The notes under the pieces: model-generated | Told to the model about the DNA's origin: nothing | Databases searched by the model: none | What the model saw: only the letters and a program-made list of their open reading frames with translations | Shown: positions 28,351 through 32,520 of the stretch, in pieces | How the letters are laid out: every line of letters starts with the position of its first letter | Numbering within the stretch: the stretch's first letter is position 1 | Origin: Bacteroidota bacterium | GTDB taxonomy: Bacteria; Bacteroidota; Bacteroidia; B-17B0; Aurantibacillaceae | Length of the DNA: 64,000 nucleotides | Reading direction: 5' to 3' | Assembly: GCA_005787585.1 (NCBI GenBank) | Contig: SYAL01000047.1 | Span: 62,001-126,000 of the forward strand | Program-made: the position numbers and the translations under genes

Positions 28351-28403
28351 TATTATCTATAAAGATAATCATAAAATTAAATTCACAAAGTGAATTTAAT
28401 TTT
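28351..28403 (-). terminator. Strong inverted repeat at the end of metH
   Basis: A perfect 14-base inverted repeat (28373-28386 and 28390-28403, loop AAA) overlaps the metH stop codon. A second smaller one (ATTATC/GATAAT, 28352-28357 and 28364-28369) follows it on the minus strand. The stems are AT-only apart from two G/C pairs, and the descending arm is T-rich. It probably acts as the metH terminator or mRNA 3' end stabiliser. Confidence 0.6.
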
Positions 28404-31400
28404 AAAGCATAGCGGGCCCTAACCATTTTTGAGCCTCTTGAAGTTTTATTTTTTTTCGTTCGGCATAACTTTGAACTTGCTCGTTATTTATTTTACCTAA
28501 ACCAAAATAATGTGATTGTGGGTGCGCCATATAAAGTCCGCTAACAGCGGCAGTTGGAACCATGGCAAGGCTTTCTGTTAAAAATATATCGGTATTTTTT
28601 TCAACCTCTAATAATTTCCAAATGGTTAGTTTTTCGGTATGATCTGGCTGCGCGGGGTAGCCTGGCGCTGGACGAATTCCGTCATATTCTTCTTTAATTA
28701 AGTCGTCATTTTTAAAATTTTCATCTTTTGCGTAAGCCCAAATTTCGGTTCGTACTTTTTTGTGCATTAACTCCGCAAAGGCTTCGGCTAATCTGTCTGC
28801 TAATGCTTTTAACATAATGGCACTGTAATCGTCGTTGTCAGCTTCAAACTTTTTTATATGCTCATCAATGCCAATACCTGTTGTTAAAGCAAAAGCGCCT
28901 AAATAATCTTGCTTTCCTTTAGGAGCAATAAAATCAGATAAAGCAACATTATATTGGCCTGCAGGTTTTTTACTTTGCTGCCTCAACGAATAAAATGTTG
29001 CTAATACATTTCCTTTTTCATCATAAACTTCGGTATCATCGTCGTTTATCGTATTTGCTGGATATATTCCAATTACTGCATTAGCTTGCAACCATTTTTG
29101 TGAAATTATTTTGTTGAGCATACTCTGAGCATCGTTAAATAATTTGGTTGCTTCAATTCCGCGAGTTGCATCTGTTAATATTTTTGGGTACGAGCCCTTC
29201 ATTTCCCAACTGTGAAAAAAAGGAGTCCAATCTATGTATTCTGAAATTTCTTTTAAATCGTAGCTATTAAACACTTTGTTTCCAATAAAAGAAGGTTTGG
29301 TAATATTTGTTTTGGACCAATCTATCTGAAATTTATTTTGCCGCGCTTCGGATAATGAAATTAATTTATTTTGAGATTGAGCATTTTTGTTTTGATCTCG
29401 AACGCGCTCATAGTCTTTATTTAAGTTATCAATAAATCCTTGGCGCAATTCGTTTGAAATTAAACTACTTGTAACCGGAACAGACTTACTGGCATCGTTT
29501 ACATGAACAACCGGACCCGAATAGTTTGGAGCTATTTTAACGGCGGTATGTACTTTTGAAGTTGTAGCGCCTCCAATTAATAAAGGGAGTTTAAAGTTTA
29601 AACGCTCCATTTCTTTCGCAACATAAACCATTTCGTCTAAGGAAGGAGTTATTAAACCGCTTAAGCCAATAATATCTACGTTATTTTTTTTAGCTTCTTC
29701 TAAAATTTTATCACAAGAAATCATTACGCCTAAATCAATAATTTCATAATTATTACAAGCTAAAACAACGCCAACAATATTTTTACCAATATCATGCACA
29801 TCGCCTTTAACCGTTGCCAAAAGAATCTTTCCACGCCCCCTGACCCCCGAAGGTGGAACTTCTTCTGCACTTCTTTGCTCGTTATAGTCATTTTGGTTAT
29901 GTAAGGTTTTTTGTACCTGATTTAAAACAGCATCAATATCTGCTAGTACTTCATCATTCGTAAATCTCAAAACAGTAAATCCAATTGACTCTAACCAAGA
30001 CTGACGAAATTCATCTTTTTCCTTTATTTCCGGCAATTGATGAATCAAGCCGTCTATTTCGATAACTAACCTCTTCTTTAAACAAACAAAATCTGTAATA
30101 TATTTTCCAATTATATGCTGCCTCCTAAATTTATAATTCTCGAGTTTTTTTGATTTAAGACAGTCCCACAAAATTGATTCTGCTTGAGTTGGATTAGCTC
30201 TATGATTTTTAGCAAAATCTTTTAATAGAGTATAGTATTGCGGGTCAGCCCACTCATAGCCGAATTCTGTCCCCTTTCCTTCGGAAAGGGCTAGGGATTG
30301 GCTGTTCTTCTTCTCCTCCAATAAAAAAGGCTCTAAATAAGCAACTGCTTTTTTCATTACCCTTGCGCTTTTTACGACTTGAGGTAAAAACATTTTTCCG
30401 CTGCCAAACAAATCGCCAACAATGTTCATTCCATCCATTAATGGACCTTCAATAACATGTAATGGCCTACCTAATTTAAGTCGCGCCTCTTCGGTATCTA
30501 AATCAATAAATTCTACTAAGCCTTTAACCAGCGAGTAGCTCAATCTTTCTTCAACCGTTCCTTTTCTCCACTCTTGGTCTTTTTCAGTTTTTTCTTTAGT
30601 AATTCCTTTCAAAGATTCAGCATGTTCAACTAATCTTTCGGTTGCATCATTTCTTCTATTTAATAAAACATCTTCAACCAATTCTAACAATGTTTTTTCG
30701 ATATTATCGTAAACTTCCAATTGAGCTGGATTAACAATGCCCATATCCATTCCATGCTTTACTGCGTGGTATAAAAAGGCAGAGTGAATAGCCTCTCTTA
30801 CATGATCGTTTCCACGAAAAGAAAAAGAGACATTACTAACACCTCCGCTTACTTTTGCATAAGGTAAATTTTCTTTTATCCATTTTGTTGAATTAAAAAA
30901 ATCTAAGGCGTTTAGACGGTGCTCTTCCATTCCTGTTGCAACAGGAAAAATATTTGGATCAAAAATAATATCTTGTGGCGGAAAATGTACTTTGTTTACT
31001 AAAATATCGTATGCGCGGCGGCAAATATCTTTTCTGCGCTGAAACGTATCGGCCTGCCCTACTTCATCAAACGCCATAATAATTACAGCCGCGCCATATT
31101 GTTTTATTTTATGGGCTTGTTCAATAAATTTAAGTTCGCCTTCTTTTAATGAAATCGAATTTACAATTGCTTTTCCTTGAACGCATTTCAGTCCAGCTTC
31201 AATTACCGACCACTTTGAAGAATCAATCATTATCGGCACTCGCGAAATATCGGGTTCAGAAGCAATTAAATTTAAAAAAGTGGTCATTGCTGATTCTCCG
31301 TCTAACATGCCTTCGTCCATATTCACATCAATAACTTGGGCGCCTCCATCAACCTGATCTTTTGCAATTGAAAGGGCTTCTTCATAATTTCCTTCCTTAA

Positions 31401-32520
31401 TTAACCTCAGAAATTTTTTTGAGCCTGTTACATTTGTTCGTTCGCCCACATTTAAAAAATTACTTTCGGGGGTAAGAGAAAAAGGCTCTAATCCGCTTAA
31501 ATGCATTATGGTATCGGCGCTTGGCTTTTTTCGTGGAATTGCATTTTTTGCAATTTCGGCAATGCGTTTTATATGAGCTGGGGTTGTGCCACAACATCCT
31601 CCTACAATATTCAAAAATCCTGCTTTTAGAAATTCTTCGATTTGGTGGCCCATTTCGTGCGCGTCTTGATCGTATTCGCCAAACTGATTTGGCAGACCCG
31701 CATTTGGATAAGCGCTCACATAAAAAGGTGCTTTATTTGATAGCTCTTCTAAATAAGGCCTCATGTCTTTAGCGCCTAATGCACAGTTTAAGCCAACGCT
31801 TAATAAGTCAACATGCGAAACGGAATTTAAAAAAGCTTCGGTAGTTTGACCAGATAAAGTTCTTCCGCTAGCATCGGTTATAGTTCCCGAAACCATCACA
31901 GGCATTTTTTTATTAATACTTTCGCAATAATTTTGTATAGCAAATAATGCGGCTTTAGCGTTAAGTGTATCAAAAATAGTTTCGATTAATAATAAATCTG
32001 AGCCTCCGTCAATTAATCCACGAACTTGCTCAGTATAAGCTTCAACTAATTCATCAAAAGTTATGGCTCTATAACCGGGATCGTTAACATTGGGCGATAA
32101 AGAGAGCGTTCGGTTGGTTGGCCCAATGGCGCCGGCAACAAATTTTGGAATATGGGCAAATTCAGGAAATTCGATTTTATACTCTAAAATTGAGGCTTTG
32201 GCAAGTTTAGCAGATTCAAAATTTAATTCGTAAACAAATTCCTGCATGTCGTAGTCGGCCATGGCAATTGTTGTATCGCTAAAAGTATTTGTTTCAATAA
32301 TATCTGCCCCTGCTTTTAAATACTCTTTATGTATTGTTTTTATAATTTGAGGTTGGGTGATAGATAGCAGGTCGTTATTGCCTTGTAAATCTTTGTGCCA
32401 ATCCGAAAAACGCTTACCTCTAAAATCTTTTTCAGTTAATTTATATTGTTGAATCATGCTGCCCATAGCACCATCTATAACTAAAACTCTTTTTTCTAAC
32501 TCTTGTTGTATTGTTGTCAT
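28402..32520 (-). CDS. metH: Cobalamin-dependent methionine synthase with inserted DUF559 domain
   Basis: MetH methylates homocysteine using methyl-THF and cobalamin. Domain order: homocysteine-binding (residues 1-330, zinc ligands Cys246, Cys309, Cys310), pterin-binding (about 350-620), cobalamin cap (about 650-738), B12-binding (898-1040, with GDVHDIG giving lower-ligand His909), and reactivation domain (about 1060-1372, with [15 protein letters not shown]). The protein is about 150 residues longer than a usual MetH because residues 739-896, in the linker between cap and B12 domains, are a complete DUF559 (PD-(D/E)XK-like) domain. The reading frame is intact throughout and all MetH motifs are kept, so the enzyme may still work. 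Expression is governed by the SAM-I riboswitch just upstream. The neighbours are unrelated. Confidence 0.95.
29833..30306 (-). mobile_element. In-frame DUF559 nuclease-like insertion inside metH
   Basis: Residues 739-896 of MetH have no counterpart in normal MetH, where a short linker joins [10 protein letters not shown] to [15 protein letters not shown]. The core (762-873, bases 29902-30237) is a full DUF559 domain. It contains [27 protein letters not shown] and [10 protein letters not shown], keeping Glu781, Asp810, Glu821 and Asp823 of the PD-(D/E)XK site, and it ends with [10 protein letters not shown]. The ends are GC-richer than the host: one has an 8-base hairpin CCCTTTCC-TTC-GGAAAGGG (30272-30290), and the other reads GCCCCCTGACCCCCGAAGG (29835-29853) beside a TTCCAC/GTGGAA inverted repeat. 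I read it as a selfish element that inserted without breaking the frame. Confidence 0.82.

Follow-up and report, generated by a model that had tools for sequence, protein, structure and literature searches.

A DUF559 nuclease domain in frame within a Bacteroidota methionine synthase, probably a copy of a homing-type selfish element

The metH locus and its in-frame insert

The window, by which we mean the whole 64,000-nucleotide stretch of DNA that was analysed, carries on its reverse strand a gene for methionine synthase with a nuclease-like domain inserted in frame, and the features of this locus are as follows.

28402..32520, reverse strand: metH, B12-dependent methionine synthase, a single open frame of 1372 aa, insert included
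30307..32520, reverse strand: N-terminal part of MetH up to the cobalamin cap, from Pfam and site reading in relatives
29833..30306, reverse strand: in-frame insert of 158 codons, missing from 28 of the 30 relatives read, with junctions given to within a few codons
30272..30300, reverse strand: 5' end arm of the element, in which 30272-30290 form a perfect 8-bp hairpin (fold z -2.5)
29902..30222, reverse strand: DUF559 nuclease domain, MetH residues 767-873, from Pfam, alignment and model, with E781, D810, E821, D823, H827 and D836 as catalytic-type residues
29836..29859, reverse strand: 3' end arm of the element, a palindrome one base short of perfect (fold z 0.5)
28402..29832, reverse strand: B12-binding and activation domains of MetH, from Pfam and site reading in relatives

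Not a single stop interrupts the 1372 codons of this ORF, which as a whole was recognised as methionine synthase by NCBIfam (2055 bits, cut-off 1497), and the homocysteine, pterin, cap, B12 and activation domains of MetH were all found with Pfam. Between the cap and the B12 domain Pfam also placed DUF559 (residues 767-873, E 1.7e-35), contained in an insert of residues 739-896 which maps to 29833-30306, and whose ends can be placed to within a few codons, as the linker differs in length among relatives. This bears out the earlier note on this DNA, which had described an in-frame DUF559 domain within a MetH that is otherwise intact and has an open frame. The four residues listed there as kept, Glu781, Asp810, Glu821 and Asp823, are indeed the same in all 45 rows of an alignment of in-host copies, as are His827 and Asp836. 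On either side of the insert MetH has dN/dS values of 0.05 and 0.13 while the insert is present, and such low values in an insert-bearing gene suggest that MetH works with the insert. The MetE family was not matched in any of seven genomes with an insert in MetH, which include the window's own genome (G000), an incomplete 1.76 Mb draft at 73% completeness in which DUF559 was matched once.

Occupied and empty sites in two genera

MetH was matched in 37 of 40 genomes of the window's own genus, and the insertion site could be read in 30, of which two were occupied (G000 and G004) and 28 were empty; the other seven of the 37 were judged by frame length alone (550-1255 aa vs 1385-1386 aa). The check for an empty site in close relatives proposed in the earlier note thus found 28 of 30 MetH genes without the insert, and in G004 the same place is taken by a DUF559 domain 99% identical to that of the window. 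The inserts of G000 and G004 have synonymous differences at 5/66 sites and their hosts at 103/432 (p 0.002), and this lower divergence of the insert suggests that it was passed on after the hosts had parted.

In a second genus, with a MetH match in 34 of 36 genomes, the linker site was occupied in 1/28 and a site in the activation domain in 9/28 of the genes read, and two different element lineages were found at one MetH site. Remnants were also present in MetH of this genus, in the form of an internal deletion (L215), solo arms (L198 and L223) and an end scar (L219), and in L206 the arms are decayed and the frame is still open. A long AcsA frame was found in 4/31 genomes of the second genus; the AcsA site was read in 15 of 30 loci, the others not matching the pattern.

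Distribution in host proteins of the Bacteroidota

The earlier note had also suggested a phylum search for DUF559 at other in-frame sites. A total of 158 distinct DUF559 copies was pooled, each in a frame that extends 200 aa or more past the domain. Their hosts include at least 40 MetH (four sites), 35 LeuS (two sites), 16 IleS, 9 AcsA, 9 RecG and 5 MetG, as well as RecJ, SpoIIE-type phosphatases, MutS, MCM, ValS and UvrA; the host labels are motif patterns, and the 30 copies left unclassified by them include L345 in MetH and L084 and L133 in LeuS. Using Pfam, the host family was found beside DUF559 in 18 of the 19 hosts checked (a set that left out L086), with L391 giving DUF559 alone. DUF559 was present in 36 of 60 relatives and, at E 1e-15, in 153 of 395 genomes of the class, and among the matches listed, frames of 700-1900 aa hold many of the best DUF559 matches and six rows have internal stops. 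Proportions are uninformative in the stretches read from these genomes, since 80 of them (79 from the matches listed for the class, one from the relatives) were picked for frames of at least 359 aa and 60 mostly for short frames.

In named records, where the loci were unselected by frame, 62 of the best 80 of at least 574 matches lay in frames running more than 250 aa past the domain and 18 in shorter ones, a figure which leans to the in-host lineage because the query was the alignment of 45 in-host copies and only the best 80 of at least 574 are counted. By reading, in four of the 18 shorter frames DUF559 forms a fusion with a gene at one of its ends. In two MAGs (L391 and L397) the element is flanked by an acetyltransferase-like gene, to the end of which it is fused in frame, and by an argininosuccinate synthase-like gene (both named by eye). 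By title, the named-record loci (best 80 of at least 574) are from Bacteroidota except for one bin labelled Nitrotoga; this contig, L385 (Candidatus Nitrotoga by label), clusters with MetH of Flavobacterium and is probably a binning error.

A search with a LeuS fragment showed a long LeuS frame (at least 1078 aa) with insert in 19 of 27 genomes (G132 included), and LeuS was found at one locus in 27/27, with the insert present in the single-contig genomes G346 and G170. The loop of the LeuS editing domain that hosts the element contains other short in-frame repeats in sister species (L166, L168, L176, L178 and L181), for example tandem ACTCAAGACTAACG units or a CGACTCCGCTCAGGGTGAC repeat.

Phylogeny, site fidelity and transfer

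The domain tree was made with 173 domains, 93 in-host and 80 stand-alone, after dropping domains of less than 80 aa, repeated domain sequences and, in one set, frames with long X runs; it is short and weakly resolved, with many forks open. A single group without any stand-alone member holds 75 of the 93 in-host rows (SH-aLRT 88), and is enclosed by a group of 85 rows of which two are stand-alone (support 81), with 10 in-host rows falling outside. Within 45 residues upstream of the first catalytic Glu, Met is absent from 31/75 rows of the in-frame group vs 6/80 of the stand-alone copies.

For 61 of 77 rows the nearest in-host relative occupies the same site, and for two it belongs to the same genome; it should be added that four rows were relabelled by hand and that sister species raise the same-site figure. 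Both same-genome rows are SpoIIE-type phosphatase paralogues of G043 with the element at the matching site: the paralogues are 29-33% identical and their inserts 98% identical, with a pS of 0.15 for the insert vs 0.79 for the host (p 8e-22). Two further copies, L074 and L129, are in different hosts of one genome (G224) and, outside the 77 rows, are mutually nearest in-host rows, the pattern expected from a jump within one genome. G043 has 46 match rows to a single SpoIIE-type phosphatase domain, some of which are pieces of one gene. This large set of phosphatase paralogues seems to serve as landing sites. Of the seven sites read in G043, all from the protein, L315 has the full element, L325 has what look like two arms without nuclease, L317 has an apparent solo arm and four have neither element nor arms. 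Overall the phosphatase site was read in 17 of 30 loci, with the others not matching the pattern.

Element and host trees were compared for 25 copies in the MetH linker, with the tested clades picked from the trees. Two host clades imposed on the element alignment gave AU p-values of 0.025 and 0.055, and two element clades on the host alignment 2e-4 and 8e-7; hence there is conflict in three of four AU tests, and the distances are correlated (Spearman 0.36). In 15 close pairs, by tests uncorrected for their number, synonymous divergence was significantly lower in the insert than in the host in five pairs and not significantly different in the other 10, which implies that much of the inheritance is vertical and that same-site closeness is partly due to descent. 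In the history of the element, vertical descent occurs alongside transfer, the latter between paralogues as well as between lineages.

Ends, arms and remnants

Beyond the earlier note, the family is found in many enzymes and many of its copies have inverted end repeats resembling REPs. Tests on the arms used 91 elements with enough flank, or 144 whose arms scored 17 or more. In the 91 elements the two arms of an element have a mean match of 18.9 to each other, vs 11.8 to the arms of other elements and 8.2 after shuffling; none of 5000 permutations was as high, the own partner was best in 18 and the own-arm score was at least 15 in 61/91. The window's copy scores 11 against this mean of 18.9, and its 3' arm, in which the palindrome is imperfect by one base where that of G004 is perfect, folds no better than shuffled sequence (z 0.5), so the copy in the window may be immobile. 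Besides the insert's own arms, no other copies of the two arm sequences were found within the window.

In 149 copies the ends of the element code for Pro-, Gly- and Ser-rich stretches, with 0.2-0.5% Cys vs 0.8% in the hosts. Among the long-frame copies 87 had readable arms, and in 82 of these a sense frame runs through the junction once the flanks are joined, a figure which follows partly from how the copies were chosen. Stand-alone copies that split a host gene were considered as well and rejected: a spanning frame was seen in 9 of 55 copies with readable arms (six sense, two antisense, one both) and in 10 of 63 controls. With a rate so close to the control, stand-alone copies are mostly located between genes, and there they carry similar arms.

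These repeats raise the alternative of a REP-like transposable element, in which the inverted hairpin repeats are what moves, carried to many places either by the DUF559 nuclease or by another enzyme in trans, and the in-frame copies are the survivors. It draws on the match between own arms in the 91 elements, the apparent solo arms and two-arm nuclease-less derivatives at the same sites, the similar arms of the stand-alone copies between genes and the two G224 copies that are nearest each other in different hosts. A DDE-type transposon leaves a target site duplication, whereas here an adjoining direct repeat of at least 2 bp was found in 18 of the 144 elements (stand-alone copies included) vs approximately 12 in shuffles, which is no clear target duplication. 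The prevalence of relatives at the same site (61/77) over those in the same genome (2/77) also speaks against it, and so does the grouping of 75/93 in-host rows without a stand-alone member, which is not what a random draw from one pool would look like. We consider this explanation rather unlikely.

Nuclease fold, residues and selection

The AlphaFold model of the domain has a pLDDT of 87, and its best PDB matches in Foldseek were 3hrl (endonuclease-like, E 2e-6) and the catalytic domain of I-Bth0305I (E 4e-5, TM 0.80 on target length), with weaker fold matches below, among which Vsr ranked 13 (E 0.065). There is also a sequence match to I-Bth0305I-type EDxHD (E 3.8e-4). A model of MetH 640-1000 has DUF559 between low-confidence linkers, and with a pTM of 0.43 its placement is not readable. 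Catalysis by EDxHD nucleases involves conserved acidic residues and a His, and in the in-frame group the E, D, E, D and D are present in 74/74 rows and the H in 73/74, and across all groups the six catalytic-type residues hardly vary. In the insert Pfam shows nuclease families alone, with no additional DNA-binding module.

The insert is under purifying selection, with dN/dS values of 0.045-0.11 in the 10 of 18 pairs for which they were computable. Such selection, together with the many core enzymes among the hosts, would fit an accessory domain kept for the benefit of the host, for instance a guard or regulator nuclease tied to an essential enzyme. However, the domain is sporadic within genera and has many unrelated hosts as well as decayed and deleted derivatives, and the defence library was matched solely by way of its homing endonuclease model (E 1e-6), making a host function of this kind an unlikely reason for its presence.

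Absence of recognisable splicing

Inteins consist of a splicing domain with Cys, Ser or Thr and His-Asn as junction residues. Using Pfam, no intein family was found among 20 host proteins (MetH searched to E 1e-3, the others to 1e-10), and no Rfam family reached its gathering score in the MetH gene. We have therefore rejected an intein, for which there is no splicing family and with which the tracking of DNA repeats by the ends does not agree, as well as an intron or other RNA in the MetH gene. Removal of the insert after translation or from the RNA by unrecognised splicing or cleavage would account for its tolerance by essential enzymes, but besides the lack of such families the ends follow DNA repeats and contain little Cys. 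In empty genes the loops themselves vary in length (LeuS, MetH), so that tolerance needs no splicing, and we judge removal to be very improbable. An assembly chimera or a one-off domain fusion, for which the draft state of the 73% complete genome could be invoked, has a negligible chance of being correct: the insert is neither an assembly error nor ancestral, because G004 shares it at the same place while 28 of the 30 MetH genes read in the genus are without it, and named isolates, such as Flavobacterium frigidimaris DSM 15937 and Winogradskyella sediminis DSM 28134 with their copies in the MetH linker, have the same site occupied, and 158 distinct long-frame copies exist.

A homing-type element retained in its host protein

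We conclude that the insert is probably one copy of a selfish element of the homing type with an EDxHD/Vsr-like nuclease fold, which stays in the host protein and would spread by site cutting and copying through recombination. The suggestion in the earlier note of a selfish or homing-type element, expressed within its host without the blocks of an intein, is supported by the sporadic occupancy, the occurrence at one site in distant families, the conflict between trees, the paralogue copy, the conserved residues, the dN/dS values and the fold. The copies reside in frame, in hosts with a single locus, and are faithful to their sites; from this pattern, the transfers, the selection and the predicted fold, we infer DNA cutting and homing, and that the protein is not processed. 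The nuclease would be translated as part of the host enzyme and would cut an allele or paralogue with an empty site, into which the element would then be copied by recombination. Many copies are bounded by inverted hairpin-containing repeats, and the element would have no splicing partner, unlike homing endonucleases borne by inteins or introns. Its survival would depend on residence in loops and interdomain linkers adjoining conserved motifs, with the Pro/Gly/Ser-rich linkers coded at the element ends allowing the host to work with an extra domain.

The odds are about even that these copies represent a separate class of unspliced homing domains, in frame in core enzymes, which bring their own repeat-encoded flexible linkers, home into the corresponding loops of orthologues and paralogues, and leave solo repeats and remnants behind. 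If so, the element shapes loop length in core enzymes across the phylum. It would also be a way of life for selfish DNA without the need of splicing, and how a mobile domain is tolerated becomes directly testable, with permissive insertion sites in core enzymes being indicated. For DUF559, a domain of unknown function, a function is suggested for one lineage. Fractured genes and a new family of homing endonucleases have reportedly been described together; among the matches listed in the open full-text literature no paper on in-frame DUF559 was present, the 14 that mention DUF559 having other subjects by their titles, and as subscription literature was outside this scope, priority is not certain. 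According to an excerpt of the literature, homing endonucleases are held to enter coding genes together with introns or inteins, which do not persist in the product (PMC3943268). In the present case a nuclease with this fold seems to invade without a removal step, in the case of LeuS in the sole locus found of 19 genomes.

Comparison with known systems

The Rickettsia palindromic elements are said (Ogata and co-workers) to be palindromic DNA in frame in protein genes, kept in the protein and without a nuclease gene. They are thus similar to the element described here in being in-frame palindromic DNA that is kept in the protein, and they differ in that a nuclease forms the core of the insert here. 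REPtrons, according to an excerpt, carry an HUH tyrosine transposase, and REPs inside genes are known (PMC3733652). As with REPtrons (RAYT), we found a gene bracketed by inverted palindromic repeats and apparent solo repeats elsewhere, although the gene is a DUF559 nuclease without HUH tyrosine transposase and the copies collected are in coding frames. Inteins favour conserved regions, as stated in an extract of PMC2814812, and both inteins and the element are in frame, inside core proteins and near conserved motifs, whereas here no splicing domain was found and the sites are, by reading, loops of variable length. Finally, the EDxHD homing endonucleases are described in an excerpt as phage-derived, with group I association, and as long multi-domain DNA-binding proteins (PMC3943268). 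Compared to these and I-Bth0305I, we found no intron and no extra DNA-binding module, while the predicted fold and the catalytic-type residues are alike, and so is the site-faithful and sporadic distribution.
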